A stretch of 32,759 bases of DNA from assembly GCA_017615245.1 (NCBI GenBank), contig JAGAAL010000048.1:1-32759 (forward strand), given 5' to 3'. Below the pieces are notes generated by a model. The model had not been told where the DNA came from and did not search any database. It worked only from the letters and a program-made list of their open reading frames with translations. Numbering within the stretch: the first letter of the stretch is position 1; every line of letters begins with the position of its first letter. The stretch is from Bacteroidaceae bacterium (GTDB lineage: Bacteria > Bacteroidota > Bacteroidia > Bacteroidales > Bacteroidaceae). Both the position numbers and the translations under genes were made by a program. Shown in pieces: positions 5,922 through 31,450 of this stretch.

Positions 5922-7493
5922 ATGAGTATTCAATCACAGAAAATCAAGGAACTTGTTGAAAAACGTGAGAAAGCACGTTTAGGTGGTGGTGAAAAGGCTA
6001 TCCAGAAGCAGCATGAGAAAGGTAAGTATACTGCTCGTGAGCGTATTGCATTACTGCTTGATGAAGGTAGCTTCGAAGAAATGGACATGTTTGTCACTCA
6101 CCGTTGTCACAACTTCGGAATGGAGAAGAAACAATTTGACGGTGATGGTGTCGTAACAGGTTGCGGTACTGTCAACGGTCGTCTTGTTTATGTATTTGCA
6201 CAGGACTTTACAGTCAATGCCGGTTCTCTCTCTGAGACCATGTCGCTCAAGATCTGTAAGGTGATGGATATGGCTATGAAGATGGGTGCGCCTGTTATCG
6301 GTCTGAACGACTCGGGTGGTGCTCGTATTCAGGAAGGTATCAATGCCCTTGCCGGTTATTCAGAGATTTTCGAACGTAACATCCTTGCAAGTGGTGTCAT
6401 CCCACAGATTTCCGGTATTTTAGGCCCATGTGCCGGTGGTGCCGTTTATTCTCCAGCGTTGACCGACTTCACCTTGATGATGGAAAACACATCTTATATG
6501 TTCCTTACAGGTCCTGCTGTTGTAAAGACAGTCCTTGGTGAGGTTGTAACTCAGGAAGAACTCGGAGGTGCATCTGTTCACTCTACCAAGTCGGGTGTTA
6601 CTCACTTCACCGCTAAGACCGAGGAAGAGGCTATGGCTATGATTAAGCAACTTCTCAGCTACATTCCTCAGAACAACCTCGAGAAGACTCCACGTGTTGA
6701 ATGTACCGACCCGATTGACCGTAAGGATGACTATCTCAACGAGATTATTCCAGACAATCCAAATATGCCATACGATATGTATGAGGTGATTTCTGCCATC
6801 GTTGATAACGGTGAATTCTTCGAAGTACAGAAGGATTTCGCACGCAACATCATCGTAGGTTTCGCTCGCTTCAATGGAGAGTCAGTTGGTATCGTGGCTA
6901 ACCAGCCAAAGGCACTCGCAGGTGTGCTCGACTGCAACGCATCACGTAAGGGTGCTCGTTTCGTTCGTTTCTGCGATGCATTCAACATTCCTATCGTAAC
7001 ACTCGTTGACGTTCCTGGATTCCTTCCTGGTACAGGTCAGGAGTACAATGCCGTTATCCTGCATGGTGCTAAGCTGCTCTATGCTTACGGAGAATGTACA
7101 GTACCAAAGGTAACCGTTACCTTGCGTAAGTCATACGGTGGTTCACACATCGTGATGAGTTGTAAGCAGCTACGTGGCGACATGAACTATGCATGGCCAT
7201 CAGCTGAAATCGCTGTGATGGGTGCTGCAGGTGCTGCTGCTGTTCTCTATGCAAAGGAAGCAAAGGCTTTGAAGGACGAAGGTAAGACCGAGGAAGCAAA
7301 GGCATTCATTCAGGAGAAGGAAGACGAGTACACGAAGCTCTTCGCTAATCCTTACAATGCTGCTAAGTATGGTTATATCGATGATGTCATCGAACCACGC
7401 AACACACGTTTCCGCATCATCCGCGCCCTCGCTCAGCTTGCTGACAAGAAACTGACGAACCCTGCTAAGAAACATGGTAACATTCCATTGTAA
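5922..7493 (+). CDS. mmdA: Methylmalonyl-CoA decarboxylase alpha subunit / acyl-CoA carboxyltransferase
   Basis: Carboxyltransferase that moves CO2 from (S)-methylmalonyl-CoA to the biotin of the carrier protein, leaving propionyl-CoA. The 523-residue length fits the family. Two crotonase-like halves are visible: the N-terminal half has [12 protein letters not shown] (128-139) and [18 protein letters not shown] (166-183), the glycine-rich oxyanion-hole regions. The C-terminal half has [10 protein letters not shown], then [20 protein letters not shown] and [20 protein letters not shown]. The adjacent epimerase, membrane subunits and biotin carrier, and the absence of a biotin carboxylase, favour a Na+-pumping decarboxylase over propionyl-CoA carboxylase beta. 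Codons are more T-ended than in the his genes, compatible with high expression. Confidence 0.93.
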
Positions 7494-7530
7494 TCTGACC
7501 GATTGTTAAATGACTAAATGGTAAAAGATT

Positions 7531-10092: not shown

Positions 10093-13000
10093 TCACTCCT
10101 TTATTAGGATTTTTCGATTATTCAAGATGTAGATGCCCTTAGGCAATTTACCATTTATAATGTGCCGACCACTTAGCTCATACCAACCACTTCCATTAGA
10201 GGGATATTGTATGTTCTCAATGCCGTCGGGCATGTCGTAGCGGATGAGTGTCACCTTGGAGGCACGGAACTCTTGTTGAGCGGCTCCTCCGGCAAGGTTG
10301 GCTTGAAAGCCGAGGAGTACGTCTTGGGGATGGTCGAGTTCGAAGTAGATGCCATGAAAGGTGGTGTTGTCCTTTCCAGCTTCAGCGATGGGGGCGTAGG
10401 CGATGGAGAGGGTAGGGATGTCTGCTGTGGGGAGCAGGTCGGAGGCTGCGAAGATGTAGGCTTGGTTGAGTTGGTAGTTGGCTTCGTATGCTGCTCCGAA
10501 ATAGTAATTGCCTTCCTCAAGACTCACTTTGCGATAAACGCGGGCATTGGTGAGGTCGCCTTCTATGTTATTCTGGCGGTCGTCCCATACGCCGAGGGTC
10601 AGGCAGTCATAGCCTGGGTAGCGGTCGAGTCCGTTACGGGTACCGTCACCTCCTGCGGGTATCTTGTAATTTTCAACAATCCAGTTCTTGGGCGTACCAT
10701 AGCGTGTGGTGGTGGATTGTCCGCTCTTACGTGAGAAGCTACTGGCTTGCAGTAGCTTCTCATTGGTGATATCAACTTGGGTGCGATAGGCTTCGTCGGC
10801 GGTATAAAGCAGTTTTACCTCGTCGATGCGGAATTCCTGATTGGCATTGCCTCCCTGCATGTTGGCTTGGAACACGAGAACTACATCCTGCTCGCGGTCT
10901 AGGGTGAAATTGATGCCGTAGAATTTGCCATCGTTGGCACAGCTGTTCATAGAGAGGTAAGCGATTGCTTTCTTTGTGACTTCTGAGGTGTTGACAGGCT
11001 CTGATGCTACATAGACGTAGGCTGTGCCGAGTTGATAGAGGGCGTTGAAGGTGAATCCGAAGTAGTATTGACCTGCGTTCAGATGTACCTTGCGGTAGAT
11101 GCGTGCATTGGTCATGTTCTTGCTGGTTGACGCATCCTCACCGCTCCACTTGCCCAACATCAGGTCGTTACGTCCGGGATAGTTGTCGATGCCGTTCTTG
11201 GTGCCTTTCGATGCGTCGTTCTGAGGAATGGAGAAGTTCTCTACAACCCAGTTGACGGGCTTGCCGAATCGGCTGCCCATGTCGGTTGCAGAGAAGTTGC
11301 TCTTCTCGAGCAGATAGTCGAGGGTGATGTCAGTACTTCCTACCTCATTGGGTGTCCCTGCTGGGTTAAAGCCTGTCTGACAGAACGCATCGTAAGTATC
11401 ATGTAGGCGATTGATGGCATCGTTTTGTTCTTCTTCTGAACCGTTAATCGCACTACGGGCAGCTTCGATCTGCTGGGTGAAGACGGCTACTTTTAAGGCG
11501 TTGGGTTTGCCTGTGTTGTTTGATGCAATGGCAGCAAATTCCGTGGCCTTTTGTTCGTAGATATCGATGACTTCCTGCAAGGAAAGGGTTTTGGGTGCGT
11601 TAGAGTCGAAGGTGATGCAAACCACAGGAGCAATTTCGTTAGGATGTTTGGTAGGTAGGGTGACAGTCAGTCCGTTAGTATCTTGTGTGAATGTAACCTT
11701 ACCGTGTCCCAGCAGACTTACTTCTTGCACCTTACCAGAATAGTACTTAGAAAGTTTTCCCAATGACTTGAATGTGAATTGGGTGCCTGCAGGCCAGCGC
11801 ATGATGGTGGCATAGACGGCTCCTTCCTTCTGTACATAGCGCACATCGTCAGCAGAGTAGTTGATGCCTTCGTTGAAGCCCTGTGCATTCAGCGGATTGG
11901 CGCTGTCGAAGAGCGGTCCCTCGCCATACGTCTTCCAAGGGCGTGTGCCGTAGATGCTCTCTCCGTTTATGTCCATCCATGCCTTGATACCGGCTACGAT
12001 ACGTTTCTCGTTGTTGTCGAGCGTACCATTACCACGAACAGGGATGCTGAGCAGCAGGTTTCCGTTTTTCGATACGATGTCGACCAGCATGCGGATGACC
12101 GTCTCGGCTGACTTGTACATGTTGTTGTCGCCCTCGTACTTGCTGTAATGCCAGCCGCCGATACAGGTACAGGTCTGCCAGGGTAGCTCCTGACAGCGGT
12201 CGGGAATGCCGCGTTCTACGTCCCAAAGCATAGCCTGCTTGTGCATGTCCTGCAATATCTTGCCTGTCACCACCACTTGCTGCTTGCCGTCATGCTGTGC
12301 GGCACTTCGGTTGTAGAAGTGTTGCAGGATGCTCAGACTGTACTTGTCATTTGTATTCGTGCTGGCTCCATAGAACGGCAGAACGGTATCGTCGAAGTAG
12401 AGCATGTCAGGATTGTACTTGTCGATACATTGTAGCACACGGTTCTGGAATTTCTGCATGTATTCTTTCGATGGCGGACACACTCCGTTGCCCCATCCCC
12501 ATTGGGTGTGTATAGTACCCCAATCGCTCCAGTTAGCGCTATGTGCATGGTTCTGCGCATAGAGTTCCTGTGGGTCATAGCCGTGCCACCAGTACTTGAA
12601 CGAACCGTCGGCATTGGTTGCCATTCCATCCTCTTTCGTCATATGCACGTCGTAGGCATCTCCCACTTCGAAGAAGGTCCATGCGTGTGCTCCATGCATC
12701 GAAACACCCAGTTTCAGACCGTGACGCCGACAGGCTTCAGCCCATCCGCCTACGATGTCCTTCAAGGGACCTATACGTGTAGAGTTCCATTCTTGGTAAG
12801 GGCTGTCCCAGCAGTCGAAGTTGTCGTGGTGCTGACCCATCGCCATGAAATACTTTGCACCAGCATCGGCATAAAGCTGAATAAGTGCTTCAGGGTCCCA
12901 CTTGTCAGCTTTCCAATGGTCACATAGGTCTTTATAACCCATTGTTTTGCTTGGAGGTGTGCCGAAAATGTTCTTGAAGGTGTTCCACTGGCTACTATTC

Positions 13001-13254
13001 GGTCCGTACATGCTTCGGGCATACCAGTCGCCGTCTTCTGCCTCACACTGGGGGTCCCAATGTGCCCAGATGCCGAACTTGGCATTACGGAACCATTCAG
13101 GACATTCCCATGCTGACAGACTCTGCCAGTTGGCGGTAAATTGTCCGGTTGCTACTTGCACATTGTCAGTCTGTGCATAGAGAAGCCCCCCTCCGACTCC
13201 CCCGAGGAGGAGTGACGAAAAGGCAAAAATATGCAAAAAAACTCTTTGTTTCAT
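10093..13254 (-). CDS. Secreted GH29 alpha-L-fucosidase-like glycosidase with tandem C-terminal domains
   Basis: A 1053-residue secreted protein. The signal peptide (1-28, ends LLYAQ) is followed by the GH29 catalytic domain (about 45-440): WFRNAKFGIWAHWD, GQHHDNFDCWDS (140-151), and the nucleophile region PDMLYFDDTVLPF with D288 the likely nucleophile. GH29 enzymes remove alpha-L-fucose with retention. After a helical FIVAR-like stretch (about 570-635) come two copies of a domain of about 180 residues (641-820 and 826-1000), recognised by G-x-P-x-N-W-x-V-E-N and Y-P-G; they resemble accessory domains of Bacteroidales glycosidases. The C-terminus has the shared tail LSGRHIINGKLPKGIYIL. Part of the signal peptide is encoded by a GC-rich interspersed element. 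Substrate is uncertain; no SusCD pair is present nearby. Confidence 0.85.
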   Translation of the reverse strand: MKQRVFLHIFAFSSLLLGGVGGGLLYAQTDNVQVATGQFTANWQSLSAWECPEWFRNAKFGIWAHWDPQCEAEDGDWYARSMYGPNSSQWNTFKNIFGTPPSKTMGYKDLCDHWKADKWDPEALIQLYADAGAKYFMAMGQHHDNFDCWDSPYQEWNSTRIGPLKDIVGGWAEACRRHGLKLGVSMHGAHAWTFFEVGDAYDVHMTKEDGMATNADGSFKYWWHGYDPQELYAQNHAHSANWSDWGTIHTQWGWGNGVCPPSKEYMQKFQNRVLQCIDKYNPDMLYFDDTVLPFYGASTNTNDKYSLSILQHFYNRSAAQHDGKQQVVVTGKILQDMHKQAMLWDVERGIPDRCQELPWQTCTCIGGWHYSKYEGDNNMYKSAETVIRMLVDIVSKNGNLLLSIPVRGNGTLDNNEKRIVAGIKAWMDINGESIYGTRPWKTYGEGPLFDSANPLNAQGFNEGINYSADDVRYVQKEGAVYATIMRWPAGTQFTFKSLGKLSKYYSGKVQEVSLLGHGKVTFTQDTNGLTVTLPTKHPNEIAPVVCITFDSNAPKTLSLQEVIDIYEQKATEFAAIASNNTGKPNALKVAVFTQQIEAARSAINGSEEEQNDAINRLHDTYDAFCQTGFNPAGTPNEVGSTDITLDYLLEKSNFSATDMGSRFGKPVNWVVENFSIPQNDASKGTKNGIDNYPGRNDLMLGKWSGEDASTSKNMTNARIYRKVHLNAGQYYFGFTFNALYQLGTAYVYVASEPVNTSEVTKKAIAYLSMNSCANDGKFYGINFTLDREQDVVLVFQANMQGGNANQEFRIDEVKLLYTADEAYRTQVDITNEKLLQASSFSRKSGQSTTTRYGTPKNWIVENYKIPAGGDGTRNGLDRYPGYDCLTLGVWDDRQNNIEGDLTNARVYRKVSLEEGNYYFGAAYEANYQLNQAYIFAASDLLPTADIPTLSIAYAPIAEAGKDNTTFHGIYFELDHPQDVLLGFQANLAGGAAQQEFRASKVTLIRYDMPDGIENIQYPSNGSGWYELSGRHIINGKLPKGIYILNNRKILIKE
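13184..13212 (-). repeat. GC-rich interspersed element, copy 2, inside the GH29 signal peptide
   Basis: The element (core CTCCGACTCCCCCGAGGAGG on plus) lies in frame and encodes residues 15-24, the LLLGGVGGGL stretch of the signal peptide. Copy 5 in the GH30 gene does the same. Confidence 0.7.
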
Positions 13255-13332: not shown

Positions 13333-16300
13333 TTACTTTACCCACACCTTTTTCCCGTCAATGATATATACTCCCTTCTTGAGCGACATTTGAGAAGATG
13401 ATACACGTCTGCCACTCAAATCGAAAATGGTTTCGCCAGTCTCTGATACTTCTTTGTTGACTTCTACGATACCGGTTGTGAGCGTTGTAATCTGCGCAGC
13501 CGATAGGAATGCCCAATGTTGCGTGGTGGCTGTGTCGTAGAAGTTGAGTTGAGGAGCCGAGATGCTGGGGCTGGTTGCTGATACCGTCGATAGTACCTCC
13601 GGAGATTCCACCCGATTGCCTCGTGCCATCCAATATGGTTTGATGGTCAGCGTTGTGTCTTCCGTTTCGATGGTCATCATCTGGCGTGAAGGCATCAAAT
13701 GTATGTCTTCTGCCTCGGTGAGCGTGCTTACTTCGCGTGTTGTGAAAGTTCCTGAGCGGAAGGTGAGATAATACCCTGTCTGAACATTCTTGATGTGATA
13801 GAAACCTGTCTTCGGTTCGTAGTTCACATACCAAGCGTAAGCGTCATTGTCGACCAGTTCGTTCAAGTCAATTGGTTTGTAGCTCACCCTGCCTGTCGAC
13901 AGTACTGTGAGGAATCGAGCAGCTGTTCCGTATTGTTCGTTGGTGAGATAGTATTTCTCTCCTTCCTTGCAGTCGAACGAGTAGAAGGGGCATGCTCCGT
14001 CGCCAACTGCTGGCATACCGTCCTCGTACATACCTTGATAGAAAGCCGCCTGACGTAGCAGGTCGATTGGTGCCGTGACACCGCTCAGTCCGTAGCATAC
14101 ATGTACGCGGTCGCCGTCAGCCACCGTATGGTTTCCACCGCTGGCGAATGTTCCGTCGTCGTTATACACGTCGGGTTGGTTTTCGAAGAAGGCAAACACA
14201 CGGTTGGCTCGTTCGCCTGTCCAGTACATCGTGGGGTGGAGCGGGCTGTCCCAACTAGTGTATCGCCAGTGTTGTCCCACACCGATGCCGTGTCCCATCT
14301 CGTGCATCACCGTGCCAGGATTCTGAGCGAAAGCCGCACCAATGGTAATCCATCCTCCATAGCTGCCATGAGCACCGTCGTCACCTGGGTCGTAGTTCAC
14401 GCTTGGGCGGTATCCACGAATGCTGGTCCATGTATTCAGGTAGCTGACAGCTGTCTTGCAGGCGTTGTCGATGCGCTCATTGGTGGCTTCGTCGCCTGCC
14501 ATGTTGTAGGAATATTTTACGTCTGCTTCGGGAAGGGTGATGATACGTACTACCTCGCCATAACCGATAGCATACTTCTTTGTAATGGCGTATGCACGGA
14601 CGTAATAGGTGGTTGAGGGCAGCAGGTCAGGAATAAGATATATCTTTCCGTTGAAGTCGTAGGATGTCGTGCTTCTGTTGTCGAGAACGGTAGGCTCGGG
14701 GTGTGTGCTCCAGCAGAAACCTCGTTCCAACAGATTGCTGACGTTCACCGTCAGGCGCCCCACGGCTGCCTTGCAACCATAGATCACTTCGGGATAAGTG
14801 GTCACGACAGGTACTGTGCCCGATGCGTTTGCCAAGCGGAAGACGAAGAGTGCCCGCTGTACGACGGCTGTAGCATCCGTGAGAGCTTCGCCCGTTGTGT
14901 ACAGATTGTCATAGGTCGCTTGGGCCTCTGCGATAGCCTGTTCGAAAGCGGTACGTTCATTCGCGTTCTCAGTTCCGTCAAGTACCTCCTGTGCCCCTGC
15001 AATAGCAGCAGCCAGTTGTTCATAAGCAGCGATGCTGACTTTTGCTTCAGCAATGGCCTGCCCCAAAGCCGAAGCCACAGCCGTCAAGTCTTGCTCAGCC
15101 GTATAGGCTTTTGCATTTTCTAGGGCTTGGGTCAGCATGGATAGTATGTCGGCATTCATGTGTTTGTCTACCAGCCCTTCTGCTTCCTCGATGCGGGTGG
15201 CCAGCTGAGCTGTATTAGCCTCTTCGGAAGCACCAAGGAATAGGAGTTGGAAATTGTCGACTGCAATCCAGTTGCCCTTGGCATTCTTGGCTTCGAAACC
15301 GATTTCCGCCTCACCTGTAATGCAGGTGAAGTCCACGCGGTACAGGGCAGCCTTGTGGACGGTCCTCTTTTTATCGTTAGCGTAGATCCATGCACCCGTC
15401 TGGTTGGTTGTAGGCGAGTCTTCCTGAATGTTCTGGGCAACTGCGGTCAGGCGATAGTTACCAATAGGCAGTCCTGTAATACGTTGCCGCACACTACCGT
15501 CACCCACAGCGTTTCCTTGCCATGTCCAGCCCTCTACATAAGTGGAACCGGCTTTCTGACTGAAAGAATTGTTGGTCTGCGTATTCATTCCCACAACCGT
15601 CCAGCCCTTTGTGCCGCTATCTTCGAAACTGGGGTTCACGATGGCATAGGTCATATCAAAGGGATTCTTATCGGAAGCCATACTGAGTTTGTATGCTTTA
15701 ATGGCATCCTTGAGCCGAACCATCGCCTCCACCAGTCCTTCTGTCTGTTGGCTGCCTACATAGGATGTCAATGCTGCTTTTGCTTCGTCCAATTCTGTCT
15801 GTTGAGGTGACGACAAGTGTTGGTCCTCCTTTTCTGCCTCAGAAATCAATAGGTCGATATATGGTTGCAGCGAATCAGCCACTACCGTATAGCTCAGCCG
15901 GAAATTATCCACGGCTATCCAGTTACCTGTGGCACCTTCGAGCAACACGCCCAATGTCAGCGTGCCGTCACCAACCGTTGTGGTTACCTCGTATTCTCCG
16001 TCCACTTCAATTGTCGTGCGGCAGTTGTTGGCAAACAGATAAGCACCTGTCTGTTTCGCGTTTGGTGTATCTTCCTGGATATGATGACCTACAGCAGTCA
16101 CCGTGTACACCCCGTATGGAATGCCTTCAATGGTTTGTCGCAGGTAGGTATCCGACAGCTTACTGCCGCGTCCAGTCCAATTCTCGGCATACGTCGTGCC
16201 GTGTTTCAGTTTAAAGGACGAATTCGTCTGCGGCCCGATGCCAATAGTTTTCCATCCCTGAATGCCCTCCTCTTCGAAGTCAGGGTTCACAATTAAATGA

Positions 16301-16374
16301 GTCACGTCAGTCTGTGCCATGACTGATGCCGTATAAGTGAATACGGCTACCAATGGTATAAGTAATCTATTCAT
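13333..16374 (-). CDS. Secreted multidomain zinc-metallopeptidase-like protein
   Basis: 1013 residues with a signal peptide (MNRLLIPLVAVFTYTASVMA). Two related carbohydrate-binding-like beta-sandwich domains follow at about 25-165 and 240-385; both contain NPDFEE/NPSFED, G-W-x-x-x-G, Q-T-G-A and GNWIAVDNF. Helical FIVAR-like segments lie at 170-240 and 385-540, then an Fn3-like domain at about 545-640. The catalytic part has VMHEMGHGIGVGQHW (HEMGH at 691-695), a gluzincin/metzincin-like zinc site with E692 as candidate base. A ricin-like trefoil region (about 785-965; KYYLTNEQYG, FYHIKNVQTGYYLTF) and the tail LSGRR..KKGVYIIDGKK end the protein. The family is not one I can name. A role in degrading glycosylated or surface proteins is an inference from the lectin-like domains and the zinc site. 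Confidence 0.7.
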   Translation of the reverse strand: MNRLLIPLVAVFTYTASVMAQTDVTHLIVNPDFEEEGIQGWKTIGIGPQTNSSFKLKHGTTYAENWTGRGSKLSDTYLRQTIEGIPYGVYTVTAVGHHIQEDTPNAKQTGAYLFANNCRTTIEVDGEYEVTTTVGDGTLTLGVLLEGATGNWIAVDNFRLSYTVVADSLQPYIDLLISEAEKEDQHLSSPQQTELDEAKAALTSYVGSQQTEGLVEAMVRLKDAIKAYKLSMASDKNPFDMTYAIVNPSFEDSGTKGWTVVGMNTQTNNSFSQKAGSTYVEGWTWQGNAVGDGSVRQRITGLPIGNYRLTAVAQNIQEDSPTTNQTGAWIYANDKKRTVHKAALYRVDFTCITGEAEIGFEAKNAKGNWIAVDNFQLLFLGASEEANTAQLATRIEEAEGLVDKHMNADILSMLTQALENAKAYTAEQDLTAVASALGQAIAEAKVSIAAYEQLAAAIAGAQEVLDGTENANERTAFEQAIAEAQATYDNLYTTGEALTDATAVVQRALFVFRLANASGTVPVVTTYPEVIYGCKAAVGRLTVNVSNLLERGFCWSTHPEPTVLDNRSTTSYDFNGKIYLIPDLLPSTTYYVRAYAITKKYAIGYGEVVRIITLPEADVKYSYNMAGDEATNERIDNACKTAVSYLNTWTSIRGYRPSVNYDPGDDGAHGSYGGWITIGAAFAQNPGTVMHEMGHGIGVGQHWRYTSWDSPLHPTMYWTGERANRVFAFFENQPDVYNDDGTFASGGNHTVADGDRVHVCYGLSGVTAPIDLLRQAAFYQGMYEDGMPAVGDGACPFYSFDCKEGEKYYLTNEQYGTAARFLTVLSTGRVSYKPIDLNELVDNDAYAWYVNYEPKTGFYHIKNVQTGYYLTFRSGTFTTREVSTLTEAEDIHLMPSRQMMTIETEDTTLTIKPYWMARGNRVESPEVLSTVSATSPSISAPQLNFYDTATTQHWAFLSAAQITTLTTGIVEVNKEVSETGETIFDLSGRRVSSSQMSLKKGVYIIDGKKVWVK

Positions 16375-16394: not shown

Positions 16395-16419
16395 CCCCCT
16401 GCCTTTTATGGGCAGGGGG
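16395..16419. other. Strong GC hairpin upstream of the metallopeptidase gene
   Basis: CCCCCTGCC pairs perfectly with GGCAGGGGG around a 7-base loop. It lies 20-45 bases before the metallopeptidase start and 22 bases after the small peptide gene (minus direction). No T-run follows on minus, so it is more likely an RNA-stabilising or expression-setting stem between cotranscribed genes than a full terminator. It resembles the GC-rich element family but lacks the CTCCGAC part. Confidence 0.55.
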
Positions 16420-16441: not shown

Positions 16442-16594
16442 CTAAAACTCTTCTTCTTCTTCTTCGAAATCATCGAACGGATCACGGCTGAGTCCTGGCT
16501 CAGTGCCTGAACCTCCAAGCTCAGTACTTATGCAGAGTATGCCGGTTGTCTTTATTTCGATAACGTTACAGGTTGGTTTGATATATGTTTTCAT
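16442..16594 (-). CDS. 50-residue acidic peptide of unknown function
   Basis: Start ATG at 16594 overlaps the stop of the preceding giant gene as ATGA. A near-consensus Shine-Dalgarno AAAGGAGG lies 7 bases upstream, inside the last codons of that gene. The 50-residue product starts MKTYIKPTCNVIEIKTTGIL, continues CISTELGGSGTEPG and ends DPFDDFEEEEEEF. It has a basic/hydrophobic first half, a Gly-Gly at 27-28, two Cys (9, 21) and a strongly acidic end. It has no signal peptide or membrane segment. I recall short Bacteroidales proteins with the same K-P-x-x-x-V-x-x-I pattern but cannot assign a function. A secreted or modified peptide cut after Gly-Gly is one possibility; a chaperone-like or regulatory partner of its neighbours is another. 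Confidence 0.7.
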   Translation of the reverse strand: MKTYIKPTCNVIEIKTTGILCISTELGGSGTEPGLSRDPFDDFEEEEEEF

Positions 16595-19500
16595 TTGATA
16601 ACCTCCTTTCTACCATTATGAATATACACTCCCTTTATGGTCGGCTGTTTGTCCAGCTTGCGTCCATTCATGTCGTACCACTGCTCTGTGCCGTCAGCAT
16701 CCGTGGTGTGGATGTATCTGATGCTAGTGCTGCCATCACCTATTGAGCTGTCTAACGATCGGGCATTGCTTCCTGATTCAATGTATGCACGGAATGGTGG
16801 AAGATAGACGTTGGCATTGCCTTCAGGAACCTGTCCCCACTTACCGCCGTGCTGCAGGATGTACTTGCTTTCTGCCTCGGCATTAGTCAGGCCCGTGAAC
16901 GTACCTTTGAACGTGTAGCCATCGACAGTCGTGCTTGCAATCTCCGTTGATGTCACGGCTATGTTGTTACAGCTCTCTGTGAAGTTAGTACTACCCATTA
17001 CAGCAACAAGGTACGGCGTGTTAGCAGTGGGTGCTTCCACCTCTTCGAAGTTCAGTGATGTGCCATTGGCACCGCTTACGACACTGCCCAGGGTATAGTA
17101 CTTGACAGTTGTGCCAGTTTCTGGAGTGAATGGCAGGCATACGGTGAAGAGGTTGGCAGCATTACCATCGATGGTCTTGTCACCCTCGCTATTACCCGGA
17201 GCCTTCAGCGTACGGCTATAGGTCAAGTAGTCTGGCCCTACCTCCTTTGGTAGTGGATTGGCACTTGACATACTTTCGTCAATGTCGACGGTGTAGCCGT
17301 TTTCATCCTGAGTGATGATACCATCCTCATAGTCGATGTCCTTCGCCTCTACGGTCAAGATACCGGCAGCGTAAGTAATACTGTAGTTTTCGTTGTACAA
17401 TCCGCTAGGGATGATGTAGTAGGTTCCTACAGGACTATTGGCTGTGTAGGTTATACCAGTGCCGTCTTTAGCGCTATTATAAGTATAGCGGAGTGTTCCG
17501 CTGAGCACTGACAGATCCTCGTTTTCTGCAAAGCCGTCGTAAGAGACGTCGTCATTGGCAGCATCATCTCCGTAGCTGATGGTCTTCTCGTTGGCAGTTA
17601 CGACCAATGGCCTCTCTGTGACTCCTGCCACGGTTGTTCTCTGGCTGCCAGTCGTAGCGAACTTGTAGTTGCCTTTGTCCTTACCTCTAAGAGTGACGTC
17701 GACAATCGACACGGTCTTTTTCTTGCCGACATCCTTTGTGTTGAACAGACCCGAGGCGGTGAAAGTCAAATCCTCGCCATCAATCTTTCCGTTAATCACT
17801 GCGTTGGTGAAGTCAAGCGTGGCGGTTCTTTCACCATCGTAAACCTTGTCCTTGGCTTTGACTCCTGCTATGGTGATTGTTTTCTGTACGATGGTCAGCG
17901 TACCGAATCTTGCTATTATGTTAGCATACTGGTCGGCATTTGTCAATGTGTAGGTGAAGGTGTTCTTGACTTTGTCCCCTACATTCTTCACTTCCTCAGC
18001 CGTCGGAGTAATTGTCACCACATCGCCTGTGCCCAGGGTGAATATCTTGCCGGTATCATCTGCAGGAATCTCTGTTCCATTATACGTTACTGTATAGACA
18101 TCTTCCTTATGTGTCTGTGCATCATATTCCCAACTTCTTGTGGCAGAACTGATTATCAGTGCTTTCGTGCTGGCGACGATGGTCAGTGTACCGCCTTCCA
18201 CAATTACTGTGTAGTTGGGGTTCGTGCCTGCCGTGACAGTAATCGCATAGTCACCGATGGATTGACCTGCCTCTCGGCTCAGCGTATAGTTAATCTTATC
18301 TCCTTCCACTGCTCCTGTGACAGTTGCTGTCAGTTCTGGGTCAGTTGATTCATCGTTGTCATAGACCTTCGTCTGGTCGTCGGCCTTGATGGTGATGGAT
18401 TTCTGTGTAATCAAGAAGTTTCCGCTTTCCACGTTTACCGAGTAGTTGGGGTTCGTGCCTGCTGTGACAGTAATCGCATAGTCACCGACATTCTGTCCAT
18501 CCTCGCGGCTTAGGCTGTAGTTGATCTCGTCTCCTTCCACAGTTCCTGTTACGGTTGCTGTCAGCTCAGGATCGGTTTCGCCGTAGACCTTTGTCTTGTC
18601 ATCAGCCTTGATCGTGATTTCTGCAGGCGTGATGCTGAAGGTACCGGCTTCAACGTTCACCGTGTAGTTCGGGTTGCTGCCCTCTTCCACGGTCACGGTG
18701 ATGTCGTAGTCGTCAACATCCTGTCCATCTTCGCGGCTCAGGCTGTAGTTAATCTCGTCTCCTTCTACAGCTCCTGTAATGGTTGCTGTCAGCTCTGGGT
18801 CAGTTGAAGCATCGTTGTCATAGACTTTTGTCTTGTCGTCCGCACTAATCGTGATTTCTGCAGGCGTGATGCTGAAGGTACCGGCTTCAACGTTCACCGT
18901 GTAGTTCGGGTTGCTGCCCGCGGTGACGGTGATGTCGTAATCGTCAACATCCTGTCCATCTTCGCGGCTTAGGCTGTAGTTGATCTCGTCTCCTTCTACA
19001 GCTCCTGTTACGGTTGCCGTCAGCTCTGGGTCAGTTGAAGCATCGTTATCATAGACCTTTGTCTTGTCGTCTGCACTAATCGTGATTTCTGCAGGCGTGA
19101 TGCTGAAGGTACCGGCTTCAACGTTCACCGTGTAGTTCGGGTTGCTGCCCGCGGTGACGGTGATGTCGTAGTCGTCAACATCCTGTCCATCCTCGCGGCT
19201 CAGGCTGTAGTTAATCTCGTCTCCTTCTACAGCTCCTGTTACGGTTGCTGTCAGCTCTGGGTCAGTTGAAGCATCGTTGTCATAGACTTTTGTCTTGTCG
19301 TCTGCACTAATCGTGATTGCTGCAGGCGTGATGCTGAAGGTGCCGGCTTCAACCGTTACTGTGTAGTTCGGGTTGCTGCCCTCTTCCACGGTGATTATGT
19401 AGTCGTCAACATTCTGTCCATCCTCGCGGCTCAGGCTGTAGTTGATCTTGTCTCCTTCCGCAGCTCCTGTTACGGTTGCTGTCAGCTCTGGGTCAGTTGA

Positions 19501-22500
19501 TTTATCATTGTCATAGACCTTCGTCTTGTCGTCGGCCTTGATGGTGATGGACTTCTCCGTAATTTTGAAGTTTCCGCCTTCCACGCTTACCGTGTAGTTG
19601 GGGTTCGTGCCTGTCGTGACAGTAATCGCATAGTTACCGACGGCCTGGCCTGCTTCTCGGCTCAGTGTATAGTTAATCTCGTCTCCTTCCACAGCGCCAG
19701 TTACTGTCGCCGTCAGCTGAGGATCGGTCGTTGCGTCGTTATCATAGACCTTGCTCTTGTCGTCAGCCTTGATTGTAATCGCTGCAGGATTGATTTTGAA
19801 CTTACCCTTCTCCACCGTCACTGTGTAGTTCTGGTTCGAGTTCGCAGCCGCGGTCACGATGATGTCGTACTCGCCAACATTCTGTCCCGCAGTGCGGTTC
19901 AGGCTGTATGAAGGCGCTACGCCGTTCGTCGGCTTACCCGTCACCGTCGCCGTCAGTTGAGGATCGGTCGTTGCGTTGTTATCATAGGTCTTTGTCTTGT
20001 CATCAGCCTTGATTGTGATTGCTGCAGGATTGATTTTGAACTTACCCTTCTCCACCGTCACTGTGTAGTTCGGGTTCGAGTTCGCAGCTGCGGTCACGGT
20101 GATGTCGTACTCGTCAACATCCTGTCCCTCAGCTCGGCTCAGGCTGTATGAAAGCGCTACTCCGTTCTCCGGTTTGCCCGTCACCGTCGCCGTCAGCTGA
20201 GGATCGGTTGTCGCGTTGTTGTCATAGACCTTCGTCTTGTTGTCTGCCGTTATCTTGATTGCTGCCGGCGTGATTGTGAACTTCGCACCTTCCACCGTTA
20301 CCGTGTAGTTCGGGTTGCTGCCCGCGGTGACAGCGATCTCATACTCGTTCACGGCCTGGCCTGCTGCTCGGCTCAGCGTATAGTTGATCTCGTCGCCTTC
20401 CACAGCGCCTGTTACTGTCGCCGTCAGCTGAGGATCGGTTGTCGCGTTGTTGTCATAGACCTTCGTCTTGTTGTCTGCCGTTATCTTGATCGCTGCTGGC
20501 GTGATTGTGAACGTGCCGGTCACATACTTAACTTCGTAGTTCCCCTGCAGATAGGTGTTCTCTTTGCCTTCTACTGCTGTATAGGTTCCACTCGGAGCCG
20601 CAGTGATGGTGTATGGCCCGACTGCCTCGCCTGTAGCTCTGCTGACCGTGTAGGCCGTGAAGGTTTCGCCTTCGGACAGACCTGTTACTGTCGCGGTGTA
20701 GCTGGCAGGATTCGTCGGGTCGTTATCGTAGACCTTGTTGTTGTTGTCCGCCGTTACCGTAATCGCTGCCGGCTTGATTGTGAACGTGCCGGTCACATAC
20801 TTAACTTCGTAGTTCCCCTGCAGATAGGTGTTCTCTTTGCCTTCTACTGGTGTATAGGTTCCACTCGGAGCCGGAGTAATCGTGTATGGCCCGACTGTCT
20901 CGCCTGTAGCTCTGCTGACCGTGTAGGCTGTGAAGCTGTCTCCAGCCTCAGCTCCTGTTACGGTCGCGGTGTAGCTGCCAGGATTCGTTGCGTTGTTATC
21001 ATATACCTTCTCCATGTCATCAGCCTTGACCGTGATTGCCTTCGGCGTCACCTCCAGCGTGCCTGCTTCGATGGTGACTAGGTAGTTGCCTACCTGTGTG
21101 GCTTGTGTGCTGCTGACAGTTACGCCATCGACGGTGGCTATCACGTTAGATGTGCTGCCCACATTGGTGATTTCGCTTTCTGATGTCATGGTCACAGTGA
21201 AGGTATGATTATCACCATCAGGTAACCCATTGACTTCAAAGTTACCATACGTCAGTGGTGTGCCGTTGTACTCTTTGCTGGTAGAGCCTGCTGTGATGGT
21301 GACGGGAATTTGATTGGAAACCGTGGCGTTGACGGTTACATCGTAGATAGGCATGGTAAGTGTAGTGCTGCTGATGACGTCAGAGGTCACGTCGGTACCA
21401 CCGTTGGTTTTCGTTGCTGTATAGACCACGTTACTACCTGTGCCGCTATAGCCGAGGGTGAACGTGGTACCTTCGGCGTAATAATCTGTGTTGTTGTATG
21501 TTATAACAGGAGAACTGATGCCAGTGGGAGTACTGCTAACGGTAGCTGTAACGTTTGTGCCGGTGGTAACTTTGCCAATATGTATTTGATTAGCATAATT
21601 GTTGCCAGTACCGTAAATGTAAACTGTGCATCCTGCTGGTATTCCGGCATAACTAAGATCCGGCTGGTCGGAAAGCATATAGATGCTCTTAAGGTTTGTG
21701 CAACCAGAGAAGGCATTGCTGCCGATAGCCGTCACGTTGGCGGGGATGATGATTGATGTCAACTTGGAGCAGCTATCGAAGGCTTTGTTGCCGATGGTCG
21801 TCACGCTGGTGGGGACGGTATAGGAGGTTCCTGTTTTGCCTGCGGGATAGGCTATGAGTTGAGTGCCAGCTTTGTTCATCAGCACGTTATCCACGGCCTT
21901 GAAAGATGAATTGTTGGTATTAACCGAAATCGTTGTCAACTTGGTGCAACCAGAGAAGGGATTGCTGCCGATACTTGTCACGTACCTAGGGATGGTAATT
22001 GATGTCAGGCTGGTGCAGCCATCGAAGGCATAGTCGCCGATGCTTGTCACATTGGTAGGGATGGTGACTGAACTCAACTTGGTGCAACCAGAGAAGGCAT
22101 TGTCGCCGATGGTCATCAACTGCGTGCCATTTGCGAAGGTGATTGAACTCAAACTGGTGCAACCAGAGAAGACATTATTGCCGATGCTTGTCACGCTAGC
22201 AGGGATGGTGATTGATCTCAAACTGGTGCAACCAGAGAAGACATCGTTGCCGATGGTATTCAAGTTGGTGGCTTGGATATTAATAGTCCTAACGCGGGTT
22301 CTTCCAGAAAAGACATCGTCATTGATGGCCGTTACGGTCTTTTGATTACTTCCATTACCGACCTTATTGGGAATATTAATAGTTGTTGTATTTGTCCTGC
22401 CATTGTATTTCGTTATCGTGGCATTATTACCACTCACTACGTATTCCCAGTCTCCATACGTTTCTGCCCACGCTATAGCGGAGGTGAACACACATACGAG

Positions 22501-22557
22501 CAGCAGTATGGCTGTCCGCATGAACTTTGTTTTGTTTTTGGTATAAGTTTCCATCAT
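16591..22557 (-). CDS. Giant surface protein: BspA-type leucine-rich repeats plus MBG/YDG repeat array
   Basis: 1988 residues. The signal peptide is MRTAILLLVCVFTSAIAWA (from Met13; Met1, Met2 or Met13 may be the true start). BspA/Treponema-type leucine-rich repeats (about 75-312; consensus SIGNNAFSGCTSLSSITIP) come first, then a linker, then about 15 MBG/YDG-type beta domains (about 414-1737), most with A-x-I-T-I-x-A-D-x-K-T-K-V-Y-D-N-x-A and NPNYTV. A beta-rich C-terminal region and the tail MNGRKLDKQPTIKGVYIHNG complete it. Known of such domains: BspA repeats are found in host- and partner-binding surface proteins, and MBG arrays act as stalks. Inference: an adhesin whose stalk length varies by recombination. 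Promoter near 22715. The 3' end carries the ribosome binding site of the following peptide gene. Confidence 0.88.
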   Translation of the reverse strand: MMETYTKNKTKFMRTAILLLVCVFTSAIAWAETYGDWEYVVSGNNATITKYNGRTNTTTINIPNKVGNGSNQKTVTAINDDVFSGRTRVRTINIQATNLNTIGNDVFSGCTSLRSITIPASVTSIGNNVFSGCTSLSSITFANGTQLMTIGDNAFSGCTKLSSVTIPTNVTSIGDYAFDGCTSLTSITIPRYVTSIGSNPFSGCTKLTTISVNTNNSSFKAVDNVLMNKAGTQLIAYPAGKTGTSYTVPTSVTTIGNKAFDSCSKLTSIIIPANVTAIGSNAFSGCTNLKSIYMLSDQPDLSYAGIPAGCTVYIYGTGNNYANQIHIGKVTTGTNVTATVSSTPTGISSPVITYNNTDYYAEGTTFTLGYSGTGSNVVYTATKTNGGTDVTSDVISSTTLTMPIYDVTVNATVSNQIPVTITAGSTSKEYNGTPLTYGNFEVNGLPDGDNHTFTVTMTSESEITNVGSTSNVIATVDGVTVSSTQATQVGNYLVTIEAGTLEVTPKAITVKADDMEKVYDNNATNPGSYTATVTGAEAGDSFTAYTVSRATGETVGPYTITPAPSGTYTPVEGKENTYLQGNYEVKYVTGTFTIKPAAITVTADNNNKVYDNDPTNPASYTATVTGLSEGETFTAYTVSRATGEAVGPYTITAAPSGTYTAVEGKENTYLQGNYEVKYVTGTFTITPAAIKITADNKTKVYDNNATTDPQLTATVTGAVEGDEINYTLSRAAGQAVNEYEIAVTAGSNPNYTVTVEGAKFTITPAAIKITADNKTKVYDNNATTDPQLTATVTGKPENGVALSYSLSRAEGQDVDEYDITVTAAANSNPNYTVTVEKGKFKINPAAITIKADDKTKTYDNNATTDPQLTATVTGKPTNGVAPSYSLNRTAGQNVGEYDIIVTAAANSNQNYTVTVEKGKFKINPAAITIKADDKSKVYDNDATTDPQLTATVTGAVEGDEINYTLSREAGQAVGNYAITVTTGTNPNYTVSVEGGNFKITEKSITIKADDKTKVYDNDKSTDPELTATVTGAAEGDKINYSLSREDGQNVDDYIITVEEGSNPNYTVTVEAGTFSITPAAITISADDKTKVYDNDASTDPELTATVTGAVEGDEINYSLSREDGQDVDDYDITVTAGSNPNYTVNVEAGTFSITPAEITISADDKTKVYDNDASTDPELTATVTGAVEGDEINYSLSREDGQDVDDYDITVTAGSNPNYTVNVEAGTFSITPAEITISADDKTKVYDNDASTDPELTATITGAVEGDEINYSLSREDGQDVDDYDITVTVEEGSNPNYTVNVEAGTFSITPAEITIKADDKTKVYGETDPELTATVTGTVEGDEINYSLSREDGQNVGDYAITVTAGTNPNYSVNVESGNFLITQKSITIKADDQTKVYDNDESTDPELTATVTGAVEGDKINYTLSREAGQSIGDYAITVTAGTNPNYTVIVEGGTLTIVASTKALIISSATRSWEYDAQTHKEDVYTVTYNGTEIPADDTGKIFTLGTGDVVTITPTAEEVKNVGDKVKNTFTYTLTNADQYANIIARFGTLTIVQKTITIAGVKAKDKVYDGERTATLDFTNAVINGKIDGEDLTFTASGLFNTKDVGKKKTVSIVDVTLRGKDKGNYKFATTGSQRTTVAGVTERPLVVTANEKTISYGDDAANDDVSYDGFAENEDLSVLSGTLRYTYNSAKDGTGITYTANSPVGTYYIIPSGLYNENYSITYAAGILTVEAKDIDYEDGIITQDENGYTVDIDESMSSANPLPKEVGPDYLTYSRTLKAPGNSEGDKTIDGNAANLFTVCLPFTPETGTTVKYYTLGSVVSGANGTSLNFEEVEAPTANTPYLVAVMGSTNFTESCNNIAVTSTEIASTTVDGYTFKGTFTGLTNAEAESKYILQHGGKWGQVPEGNANVYLPPFRAYIESGSNARSLDSSIGDGSTSIRYIHTTDADGTEQWYDMNGRKLDKQPTIKGVYIHNGRKEVIK
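16602..16609 (-). promoter_or_regulatory. Near-consensus Shine-Dalgarno for the 50-residue peptide
   Basis: AAAGGAGG on minus, with 7 bases to the ATG at 16594. It is formed by the codons for R-K-E-V at the end of the surface-protein gene (GRKEVIK then stop). None of the large neighbouring genes I checked has a comparable site, so it decides this start and suggests translational coupling or high expression of the peptide. Confidence 0.7.
18616..19314 (-). repeat. Three nearly identical tandem MBG units (231-237 bp)
   Basis: The word gatttctgcaggcgtgatgc recurs at 18616, 18853 and 19084, and in slightly changed form at 19315, with spacings of 237, 231 and 231 bases. Comparing the units at 18853 and 19084 I count about seven differences, all synonymous. 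The 6-base length difference adds two residues (V-T-V-E-E-G for V-T-A-G). This indicates recent duplication or gene conversion within the array. Confidence 0.85.
20507..21052 (-). repeat. Two long-form MBG units (273 bp each)
   Basis: gtgaacgtgccggtcacata occurs at 20507 and 20780, 273 bases apart. These two units are 14 residues longer than the others, with an added segment containing EGKENTYLQGNYEVKYVTGT. They form a separate subfamily at the N-terminal side of the MBG array. Confidence 0.8.
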
Positions 22558-28568: not shown

Positions 28569-31450
28569 AAAAAGTTTGTAATGGCGCGCATCAGTGCATT
28601 GCGTGAATCGGCTTCGCGAATGCTCTCGATGGGGAATCCAACAACGACGGATTTATAGTCTGTTCCGTCGTAGGCTACTGCTGCTGGCATGTAGTTGCTG
28701 TATTGGAGCATGGCGAAACTGGTTCCCTCCGACACCCCCGATTGGGGGAGAGGTGATATTGAGGTCAACTTTGGCACGGCATAGCTGTAGGGGTTCATCT
28801 CACGATAGATGGTGAAATCGAGATTGCTGCCGTTTACTCCTATTATTTCCTTATCAGTAACGACGGATGAATTAAAAGTCTGAAAGTTTGAAGAATTGAA
28901 GTTCTTGGAACTTGAAGCATTGAGGTTGGCTCCGCTGACGAGCAGACGTCCTCCTTGTTCGGTGTAGCGTTTCAAGAGCTGGAGGGTCTCGGCATTGAAC
29001 TCTTTCTGCACGCCATAGATGACATCAATCATGGTATATTCGTGTGGTACGATCACGTTGGAACGAAACGCTTCCTCGCTACAGCTGCAGAACGAATGGT
29101 TGCGGAGCTGTGCGATGCCTCGTCCGTGTAACGCTACATAATCGAAAGTGTTACCCATCATGACGGTTCCTTCAAGTTCAGTACCGCTATAGCCTGTTCC
29201 CGTAGGGAGTTCAGAACCCATATTGGTCTTGTCGAACGTAATCTGCCGTCCGCAGAATCCTGCAAATTTACCATATGGCACACCTGGGTCGGCATCGAGG
29301 TCGAATCCTTGATTCATGTCATCTGAGACCTTAGCTGGTCCTTCGAGTCGTGTGAACGCATTGACCAGCAGGATAGTTCCTGTGTTTTTGGGGGCTGCGT
29401 ATGCTGAGAGTACTTCGGATGGGAAACTGATACCTCCATCGTTCATTGCTGCGATACGGAACGAATAGAGTTTGTCTTTTTCTAATGGTGCTAGATAGGA
29501 TGTGCCGTTCACGACTGTTCCGTTGTCGAAATCGCCATCATCGATGCGCGTATAGACAATATATTTCGTCGGGGCGGCTGTCGGTTCGAGTGGGTCGGGT
29601 GTGGGTTCCCATGTCAGATTCGCCCATTTATCCTGATCGTTGAGTGTGATGGCGAAGTTGTGGACGGGTAAGGGCTGGATGACATAACTGCGTTGATGCA
29701 TCGTGGCAATATATTTGACAATCGACTTATATACTGAGCGGCAGAAATCGAACTTAAAGTGTGGGTCGTAGCCGAAGCAGAGGTCATCGAAACTCTGATG
29801 GGAGAGCATCTCGAGGATGATGGATGGTACTTGGGGTTCACGGGATTCACAGTAGTTGCGATTCCACACTTGTCGGATGCGCCAGTTCCATTGTTTCATG
29901 TCAATAGTCAGATTGTACTGAATGGTGCTCGCCAAGTCGTAACTGGCAAGACGACTGATGCCAGCATCGGTTTGTGCGTTGTAGTAGTCGGGTAGGGCGG
30001 TGCAGATAGCGAGCGTGCCGGTGATGTCGCCAGTACGTGAGTATCCTGCATCGGTGTGGCAAGCGATTGAGAGTTCGAAAGGAACATGACGCCCTGGACG
30101 GTTGGGAACATAAGGTGACCCTCCTGCGAGTGTGTTGAGCGTCTCGCATCTCGCCCACATATCGTTGTTGTAGTCGTTATCGTTGTTGAAGTGATTGTAC
30201 ACCGAGTCGGGCATTCCGTTCCACTGAGCATAATAAAGTGATGCTTCGGCCCATCGTGGTTTCCCACTGGTGGAGAACTCTGCGTACGAGTTGTCCTTAT
30301 TGGCTGCACCACGAGCGATATTCCCTATTCCGCTTCCGAGTCGGATAGCATCAGCTGTGATGACACCTTCTTTTTCGCTGTGGTTGTTGAGCAGCACGCA
30401 GTTGTTCTCGCTTTTCCCTTTGGCAAAGTCGAACGTGCCAAGATATACCCAGGTGCTTCCACCCATTTGCTGATTCACTTTGAAGTCGGTTCTAACTCCT
30501 CGATGTACGATTGTATAAGTTGCATCGTCTACGCTGTTGGGCATAGTCTGGTAGGAAACATAGACGGCATAACGTCCGTCTTCGGGGATATCGGGTGTCC
30601 AGGTGATGACGGCATGAGGATGATTCGACCGTGTGGTGGCTGTATATCGGGCTGTTCCGTCGCTGAACGGATGATCGCCCATGTAATATGCTTCTTTTAA
30701 ATGTGCAAATCCTGCTGAGTCGCAAGTGTGCCAACGTCCTTCTTCTTGATAGGTACCATGTTTTTCGGGCGCATCGTTGTCGACCACCACTTCATGGTTT
30801 TGCCAATCGCGGTCGCGTGGAGAATAGACCACAGCACCTGCATTCTCAAGCATCGGGATGATATACGGAAGGACGAAAGTCTGCGAGAACAGGTCCTCGG
30901 TTGTACAGAACAGGTGTGGACGTTGCCAGGCCCACGTTTTCTGATCTTGTTTCCAATAGGTGCCGTGACTCTGGGCGATTGAAATATGATTGCCTTCCAA
31001 ACCCTTGCTGGCTGATAGCGGCGAACTGGCGTTTTTCACCCACGGCTGTCCGTGATAGGTGTTCTGCCACATACGTCCCTCGTCTTTCGGCCCTTTTCGA
31101 ATGGTATTAGGTATGAGTTGCTGAATGGGCTGTCGGTCGGTGAATACGGTGACAGAGAGGTGAGCAAGTGAGTCGGGCACGAACGACCGTATGCTATCAT
31201 AGATACACTCTACGACCTCATCGGTGAAATACTGCTCTTTGAAACCTCCGTTAGCATAAACGCGGATTTCCCTGCGTGTTGTGTCGACAATCAGACTGTC
31301 GAGTGTACTGCGCATCAATTTCTGCTCGTTGCGGGTGTAGTTGTCTAAATAGTAAGTCAGCCGGCTTCTCATCGTTTGTGCGTTTAACACGATGGTTAGG
31401 GTTAGCAGGCTGGCAATGATGTATAGTCGTTTCATGTATGTATGGCTCAT
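28559..31450 (-). CDS. Exported amidase-type hydrolase split by a golvesin-like domain, with Fn3 and C-terminal domains
   Basis: 963 residues with a signal peptide (best read from Met6, MKRLYIIASLLTLTIVLNAQ; ATG at 31435). The 31450 start gives an ATGA overlap with the upstream stop. An Amidase_3-like zinc site is spread over the chain: H162 (IAQSHGTYW), E185 (CTTEDLFSQ), H465 (SIACHTDAGYS) and E547 (IILEMLSHQSF). Between E185 and H465 sits a golvesin/xanthan-lyase-like beta domain (about 217-375: GRYAVYVSYQTMPNS, WVYLGTFDFAKG, ADAIRLGSG). An Fn3 domain (about 598-690) and a Rossmann/GATase-like C-terminal domain (about 695-963) follow. A role in peptidoglycan cleavage in the periplasm is inferred. 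Its C-terminal part holds low-complexity repeat (SSKNFNSSNFQTFNSS) and a GC-rich element (SPLPQSGVSEGT). Confidence 0.78.
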   Translation of the reverse strand: MSHTYMKRLYIIASLLTLTIVLNAQTMRSRLTYYLDNYTRNEQKLMRSTLDSLIVDTTRREIRVYANGGFKEQYFTDEVVECIYDSIRSFVPDSLAHLSVTVFTDRQPIQQLIPNTIRKGPKDEGRMWQNTYHGQPWVKNASSPLSASKGLEGNHISIAQSHGTYWKQDQKTWAWQRPHLFCTTEDLFSQTFVLPYIIPMLENAGAVVYSPRDRDWQNHEVVVDNDAPEKHGTYQEEGRWHTCDSAGFAHLKEAYYMGDHPFSDGTARYTATTRSNHPHAVITWTPDIPEDGRYAVYVSYQTMPNSVDDATYTIVHRGVRTDFKVNQQMGGSTWVYLGTFDFAKGKSENNCVLLNNHSEKEGVITADAIRLGSGIGNIARGAANKDNSYAEFSTSGKPRWAEASLYYAQWNGMPDSVYNHFNNDNDYNNDMWARCETLNTLAGGSPYVPNRPGRHVPFELSIACHTDAGYSRTGDITGTLAICTALPDYYNAQTDAGISRLASYDLASTIQYNLTIDMKQWNWRIRQVWNRNYCESREPQVPSIILEMLSHQSFDDLCFGYDPHFKFDFCRSVYKSIVKYIATMHQRSYVIQPLPVHNFAITLNDQDKWANLTWEPTPDPLEPTAAPTKYIVYTRIDDGDFDNGTVVNGTSYLAPLEKDKLYSFRIAAMNDGGISFPSEVLSAYAAPKNTGTILLVNAFTRLEGPAKVSDDMNQGFDLDADPGVPYGKFAGFCGRQITFDKTNMGSELPTGTGYSGTELEGTVMMGNTFDYVALHGRGIAQLRNHSFCSCSEEAFRSNVIVPHEYTMIDVIYGVQKEFNAETLQLLKRYTEQGGRLLVSGANLNASSSKNFNSSNFQTFNSSVVTDKEIIGVNGSNLDFTIYREMNPYSYAVPKLTSISPLPQSGVSEGTSFAMLQYSNYMPAAVAYDGTDYKSVVVGFPIESIREADSRNALMRAITNFLCK
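28722..28752 (-). repeat. GC-rich interspersed element, copy 7, inside the amidase-type gene
   Basis: Plus-strand core CCTCCGACACCCCCGATTGG then GGGAGAG. It is in frame, coding SPLPQSGVSEGT about 55 residues from the end of the protein, in the C-terminal domain. Confidence 0.65.

Follow-up and report, generated by a model that had tools for sequence, protein, structure and literature searches.

The 50-codon gene at the centre of this analysis belongs to a large, multi-copy and common family of small genes, as yet unnamed, in Prevotella-like bacteria. It lies on the minus strand of the window, the whole 32,759-nucleotide stretch of Bacteroidaceae DNA that was analysed. We consider it probable, at roughly 60%, that the gene encodes a leader-bearing precursor, which on the strength of sequence comparisons would be bound by a PqqD-like protein, cleaved and exported, and would then function next to the surface protein encoded beside it. 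The main new evidence is a module of kinase-like, peptidase and PqqD genes, which lies on another contig and was outside the view of the earlier note on this DNA.

The peptide gene and its family

The features of the window that bear on the gene are as follows.

16442..16594, minus strand: 50-codon precursor-like peptide gene (ORF list, relatives, purifying selection between relatives)
16526..16594, minus strand: leader, residues 1-23 (MKTYIKP...ILCIS), a conserved module (alignments A1 and A2)
16445..16525, minus strand: acidic tail, residues 24-50 (composition)
16602..16609, minus strand: AAAGGAGG, Shine-Dalgarno sequence within the 3' end of the upstream gene (sequence)
16591..22557, minus strand: BspA-type LRR / MBG repeat surface protein, 1988 codons (domain matches)
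16594..16695, minus strand: C-terminal tail of the 1988-codon protein, WYDMNGRKLDKQPTIKGVYIHNGRKEVIK, T9SS-sorting-like (own tail profile)
16395..16419, minus strand: hairpin 3' of the peptide gene, 9-bp stem, without a T run (-20.7 kcal/mol, z -3.46)
13333..16374, minus strand: 1013-codon exported-looking protein, next on the strand (ORF, C-terminal tail)

The product of the 50-codon gene is MKTYIKPTCNVIEIKTTGILCISTELGGSGTEPGLSRDPFDDFEEEEEEF. The start codon of the gene and the TGA stop of the 1988-codon gene overlap as ATGA, and AAAGGAGG, which falls in codons R-K-E-V of that gene, is separated from the ATG by 7 nt (TTATCAA). Re-reading the sequence bore out the earlier note on the gene, the overlap, the Shine-Dalgarno sequence and the product, as well as on Gly-Gly at residues 27-28 and the C-terminal end of six Glu plus Phe in this copy. 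The upstream protein consists of BspA-type leucine-rich repeats plus many MBG domains. The 1013-codon protein ends in KKGVYIIDGKKVWVK, a tail similar to that of the 1988-codon protein and with a weak resemblance to TIGR04183 (E 0.029, below cut-off); Pfam and NCBIfam searches with this protein gave no match, and it carries HEMGHGIGVGQH, an HExxH-like or zincin-like motif. The hairpin is a possible 3' end or a barrier ahead of the next gene, and the start region of the peptide gene has no special folding (z 0.45). Elsewhere on the minus strand of the window, 10093-13254 encodes an alpha-L-fucosidase with DUF5013, and 31447-32748 encodes a T9SS plug protein domain (PF17116), upstream of genes for a Golvesin_C/fn3 protein and a radical SAM (PF08497) protein.

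A tblastn-like search of 16 further genomes of the genus returned one match to the peptide (E≤0.01), and 2 further genomes of the 201 from the bacterial family gave matches at E≤0.001. Together these searches yielded four relatives, and a profile (A1) built from the resulting five sequences matched 118 of the 201 genomes (E≤0.01), with up to 12 matches per genome; a scan of named genome contigs added one relative, L035, from an uncultured Prevotella sp. The gene proposed in the earlier note is thus real by the test of homologues. The own genome holds a second copy, L165, whose counterpart in another species of the genus, L025, is flanked by similar genes, forming a syntenic pair. We extracted 94 peptides, 93 of them distinct and 92 shorter than 100 codons; the set of 92 used below comprises the better-scoring matches of the A1 profile and L035, leaving out a 208-codon ORF (L057) and one duplicate. 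No member of this set matched Pfam, and neither Pfam nor NCBIfam holds a model for the peptide family as such. Three NCBIfam models each match one member, two of them being lasso-precursor models, and only one of the 92 members matches a lasso-precursor model (E 2e-5). Solved structures gave no match to the family, a scan of viral contigs with the peptide alignment gave no usable stretch, and PHROGs gave one weak match, phrog_29970 (E 0.0084).

Family members share a leader of the pattern YxxP-x3-V...(I/L)(L/I)(C/A)xS, followed by an acidic, Cys-poor tail. Every sequence in the alignment of all 92 members (A2) has M1 and Y4, and at least 90% have P7 and S23. A regular expression found YxxP in 91/92 members, a count that is biased because the family profile itself selects for the motif. 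The Pro-to-Ser spacing is 16 in 78 of the 91 YxxP members, the position two before Ser is Cys in 54/90 and Ala in 24/90, and the part after Ser is net negative in 84/90 and contains Cys in 5/90. We infer that the leader of the window peptide ends after S23. The K-P-x-x-x-V-x-x-I opening that the earlier note likened to that of short Bacteroidales proteins proved to be that of a recurring family whose members adjoin genes for exported proteins. The alignment that the note had called for shows the acidic character of the tail to be kept; Gly-Gly is absent as a conserved feature from the A2 consensus and is unsupported as a conserved cleavage site, and the six-Glu run is peculiar to the window copy, the corresponding part of its relatives being merely acidic.

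The far end of the tail is also patterned. An Arg...[WF]...[WFLI] end occurs in 31/53 members that lie behind genes with the C-terminal tails described below (500 shuffles: mean 5.6, maximum 13) and in 10/37 other members (mean 1.9, maximum 5), and by eye the Arg...Phe-Asp-Asp-Phe end of the window peptide resembles this motif. In some genera the tail end is fixed as RRGxWGNLW (many members, e.g. L021, L023, L063, L065, L090). Leaders are more alike than tails (similarity 69% vs 51% over 13 pairs), and pN is below pS in 14 of 16 related peptide pairs (exceptions, L062/L071 and L019/L055), showing purifying selection on the peptide between relatives. At L041, two family peptides (3722-3880 and 7379-7525, plus strand) stand in tandem before two lipoprotein genes; their leaders are identical at 26/26 positions, their tails at only 11/27.

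Neighbouring genes and the Shine-Dalgarno sequence

Members of the family sit next to genes for surface proteins of two kinds. First, 55 of 78 members, those with an upstream ORF of at least 80 codons ending no more than 300 nt away, follow a gene with a T9SS-like C-terminal tail, compared with 32 of 750 control genes (Fisher 2e-44; control stretches L098-L157 from three genomes). The tail profile was home-built from 41 of these 55 positive tails, the other 14 being non-seeds, and the tail is named T9SS-like by resemblance. The gap from tailed gene to peptide is 60 nt or less in 45/54 cases. Among five tails searched with the standard tail models, none scored above cut-off; one matched TIGR04183 (14.4 bits, cut-off 23) and PF18962 (13, cut-off 27), the tail of the 1988-codon protein matched neither, and no Pfam or NCBIfam model recognized its WYDMNGRKLDKQPTIKGVYIHNGRKEVIK. 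The neighbour proteins share a KG[IV]YI.NGKKV-type tail with T9SS cargo that carries a C-terminal sorting domain, whereas the peptide lacks both this kind of tail and an apparent signal peptide. T9SS components are present in the own genome (SprA_N) and in the window (the plug domain). Most T9SS-like-tailed genes have no peptide: a family member follows only 2 of 32 in the control stretches and 0 of 15 in the stretches from the own genome. Second, a lipobox gene lies within 150 nt downstream of 19 of the 36 judgeable other members, compared with 94/747 in the background (2.7e-8), and six members behind tailed genes also precede a lipobox gene. Five members from another order (L159, L160, L163, L164, L166) all stand, by eye, before lipoprotein-like genes. 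The homologue search suggested in the earlier note thus places relatives beside T9SS-like-tailed genes, and the coupling to a surface-protein gene that it had proposed is supported.

The Shine-Dalgarno sequence, which the same note had singled out as unusual, recurs in the family. AGGAGG stands 4-20 nt before the ATG of 11/92 members but only 2/644 control genes (Fisher 4e-9), with 10 among the 55 members behind tailed genes and 1 among the 37 others. It precedes 1/215 genes in the peptide neighbourhoods, and around the stops of control genes it is found at 0/31 tailed and 14/716 other genes. In the 11 members, which come from 7 genera, it lies 7-9 nt from the ATG; a single genome, G026, contributes three of them, including two near-identical peptides. 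The presence of AGGAGG before family members is more than chance. A study of rpsU/bS21 control in Bacteroidia describes strong Shine-Dalgarno sequences as exceptions among bacteria that seldom use them, and reports that ribosomes without bS21 favour strong Shine-Dalgarno starts and that no Bacteroidales genome meets its rpsU criteria (PMC9976891). The genes under that control and the peptide genes are alike in being strong Shine-Dalgarno exceptions in Bacteroidota, and by analogy the peptide genes may be read by ribosomes of the bS21-lacking type. The family adds strong-Shine-Dalgarno genes of Bacteroidota to the ribosomal ones discussed in that study (PMC9976891).

The kinase-like, peptidase and PqqD module

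We looked for a PqqD-like protein because the leader is of the lasso type. Two studies describe lasso leaders in which YxxPxL is read by a PqqD-like B1 protein, with Tyr at -17 and Pro at -14 (PMC10368454), and a PqqD-like protein, PadeB1, that binds its own lasso leader tightly (PMC5067487). PqqD-like proteins were found in 180/201 genomes, including the own genome (G000:C22:24697-24915), where the gene is part of this module:

L171 7787-11057 (G000 contig 22): P-loop kinase-like protein, Peptidase_S24, PqqD and ABC exporter

In this module, Peptidase_S24 scores above the Pfam cut-off and PqqD scores 58.4 bits (cut-off 23.4). The peptidase is a soluble, S24/S26-like protein of 157 residues, resembles the archaeal/SipW signal peptidase (TIGR02228, E 6e-6, below cut-off), and has S35, H74 and D89 invariant in 11 sequences. 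Among PDB entries the PqqD-like protein matches TfuB1, a protein of lasso-peptide systems, best (E 0.011); the NCBIfam models that score highest with it are those for lasso PqqD, at scores below cut-off. The kinase-like protein falls below every curated NCBIfam cut-off; its matches to ScmC (E 0.0018; 17.7 bits, cut-off 125) and HprK_rel_A (E 0.016; 14.3 bits, cut-off 200) are a weak likeness to the SynChlorMet cassette and the HprK-related families (TIGR04249, TIGR04352, TIGR04353, TIGR04355), and one PqqD weakly matches TIGR04353, with all such matches below the curated cut-offs. Kinase-like, peptidase and PqqD genes recur together in most listed PqqD loci, some of which have no ABC gene, and fused forms occur (kinase-like/S26 in L175 and, by eye and alignment, S26/ABC in L174). 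The RRE-Finder paper takes a PqqD-like protein found close to enzymes and transporters as a strong suggestion of an RRE-dependent cluster (PMC7470986).

Two kinds of evidence tie this module to the peptides. The first is linkage. In L175, PqqD, the fused kinase-like/S26 gene, a family peptide and a lipoprotein gene follow one another on the same strand, as do a family peptide, a lipoprotein gene and PqqD in L174. Among the matches listed (about 150 peptides), at least five peptide-PqqD pairs lie within 3.5 kb (0.43 expected) and at least six within 10 kb (1.22 expected); these expectations assume about 150 peptides, 1.1 PqqD per genome and 2.7 Mb, and the pairs were read by eye. Most members are unlinked to the module, since a scan of 1.5-4 kb around the peptides found it once (L087), and in the majority of genomes the module has no peptide next to it; in the own genome, the 50-codon gene is on contig 30 and the module on contig 22.

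The second is co-occurrence, for which the p-values overstate independence because the genomes are related and some are incomplete. A peptidase profile (A3) matched 163/201 genomes, 112 of the 118 with the peptide and 51 of the 83 without it (2.4e-9), leaving as exceptions six peptide-positive genomes with no peptidase match and those 51 peptide-negative ones. The association holds among genomes at least 90% complete (74/76 with vs 34/55 without the peptide), among SprA-positive genomes (100/105 vs 36/49, 2e-4) and among SprA-negative ones (12/13 vs 15/34, 0.003). SprA itself is found in 105/118 peptide-positive and 49/83 peptide-negative genomes, and the idea that T9SS is the sole partner of the peptides is weakened because the peptidase tracks them also in SprA-less genomes. 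Among 21 chosen genomes from other groups, the peptidase was present in both that had convincing peptides and in none of the other 19. In 395 genomes of the phylum, scored with at most nine peptidase candidates per genome, the peptide was found in 6, the peptidase in 12 and both in 5 (6e-8); a strong-match cut leaving 5 peptidases in 395 was set after the list had been seen, and counting all 12 leaves the overlap unchanged at 5. The sole peptide-positive genome of the six without peptidase, G427, is presumed to be a chance match, the hit (L161) being the start of an unrelated 151-residue ORF. Seven weaker peptidase genomes (E 1e-7 to 1e-10) had no peptide match. The eight peptidase loci examined there contained a PqqD-like ORF in six cases, a kinase-like ORF in three and a family peptide in none. 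Beyond the own bacterial family, the agreement comes from a single genus (G207 and G561); in each of these two genomes a PqqD-like gene follows the peptidase.

Comparison with known peptide systems places the family near, and apart from, two of them. Split-B1 lasso systems of the paeninodin type share the YxxP leader and a small separate PqqD-like protein, and they too have kinase-like and ABC genes near PqqD. They differ in having a B2-type peptidase where the module has an S24/S26-like one, in a shorter spacing from Pro to the cut, and in gene order, as the family precursors lie beside surface-protein genes and mostly away from the module. No B2 peptidase (PF13471) was found in the own genome, which is 62% complete, and Asn-synthetase-like matches in this incomplete genome are on contigs 28, 43 and 60 only, with none on contig 22 or 30. 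A true lasso peptide was rejected because there is no B2 and no cyclase beside the module. Double-glycine (C39) peptides, such as bacteroidetocins, carry a GG leader; they resemble the family in having a leader, a variable tail and an ABC exporter, but Gly-Gly is unconserved here and the module peptidase is S24/S26-like. A Gly-Gly leader peptide was rejected on the A2 consensus. Two other loci were noted by eye. At L190 (G047), PqqD is accompanied by an Asn-synthetase-like ORF and by a peptide reading KREWVTPEII..., and the locus looks like a true lasso-type cluster; G047 has no match to the S26 peptidase profile. In L199, a small ORF at 347-620 of the minus-strand reading (MKWEKPRIVDFSD...LFCASNGN...) is next to an S26/kinase-like locus from another class; its KP and LFCAS recall the family, its profile E is 4.9, and it is possibly a RiPP precursor.

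Candidate maturation pathway and alternatives

In the pathway that we propose, the peptide would be made in step with the surface-protein gene through translational coupling, reinforced in some members by the strong Shine-Dalgarno sequence. The PqqD-like protein, an RRE of the kind that binds leaders in many RiPP systems, would bind the YxxP leader, and the soluble S24/S26-type peptidase would cut near (C/A)xS, a -3/-1 pattern that fits signal-peptidase rules. The cut may alternatively fall before Cys/Ala, by analogy with lasso spacing, because the distance from Pro to Ser is 16 residues in most members and the lasso Pro is at -14. The ABC exporter, which is beside the module in the own genome, would carry the acidic peptide out of the cell after its release, and there, at the cell surface, it would act with the adjoining T9SS-type cargo or lipoprotein. 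Of the possibilities offered in the earlier note, a secreted peptide that is cleaved or modified now fits best, though without Gly-Gly as a conserved cleavage site.

Three other explanations make use of part of the same evidence. An RRE-dependent peptide with a role of its own, as a pheromone or antibacterial, would share the leader and the module, and the surface-protein neighbour would be merely a convenient site of expression; the variable tails and the two kinds of neighbour, tailed proteins and lipoproteins, fit such a peptide. We consider it unlikely, as the neighbour types are strongly non-random (55/78 vs 32/750), members are scattered over many surface-protein genes per genome, unlike a single pheromone locus, and the family tails are acidic, unlike most antibacterial peptides. 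Somewhat less probable is a small protein that stays unprocessed in the cytoplasm and aids or limits the folding or export of the adjoining cargo. Such a protein would account for the absence, by eye, of a signal peptide, the tight coupling (gap of 60 nt or less in 45/54), the acidic, flexible tail and the tracking of SprA (peptide in 105/154 SprA-positive and 13/47 SprA-negative genomes), but the peptidase co-occurrence is stronger and holds without SprA, there are one-operon cases with PqqD, and the same leader occurs beside lipoproteins, which take another route. A cis-acting coupled or arrest ORF, in which translation and not the product matters, would suit the ATGA overlap, the strong Shine-Dalgarno sequence and the hairpin; it is very improbable, given that both ends of the sequence are conserved over genera, that pN is below pS in 14/16 pairs and that the peptide comes after, not before, its neighbour in 55 cases. 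A spurious ORF, for which the short length and the single tblastn match in the genus might speak, is already contradicted by the profile matches in 118/201 genomes, the syntenic pair L025/L165 and selection at the codon level.

If the favoured reading of an RRE-bound, cut and exported precursor is right, it may be one case of a general RRE-guided maturation and export system in Bacteroidota, with dispersed substrates, one acidic peptide delivered per surface adhesin or lipoprotein, and some members read, through a full Shine-Dalgarno sequence, by ribosomes with a free anti-Shine-Dalgarno; we put this extension forward tentatively, as possible but less likely than not. A literature search found no description of the peptide family or of the kinase/peptidase/PqqD module, and one search on the pair found no paper common to peptide maturation and surface-protein display. 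A term search in the main text of a survey of Bacteroidales RiPP clusters found neither S24 nor HPr kinase, and found PqqD only in a reference (PMC10352776). The proposed pathway would give a small-gene family of abundant gut, oral and rumen bacteria a testable biochemical context, and would link peptide maturation to surface-protein display.
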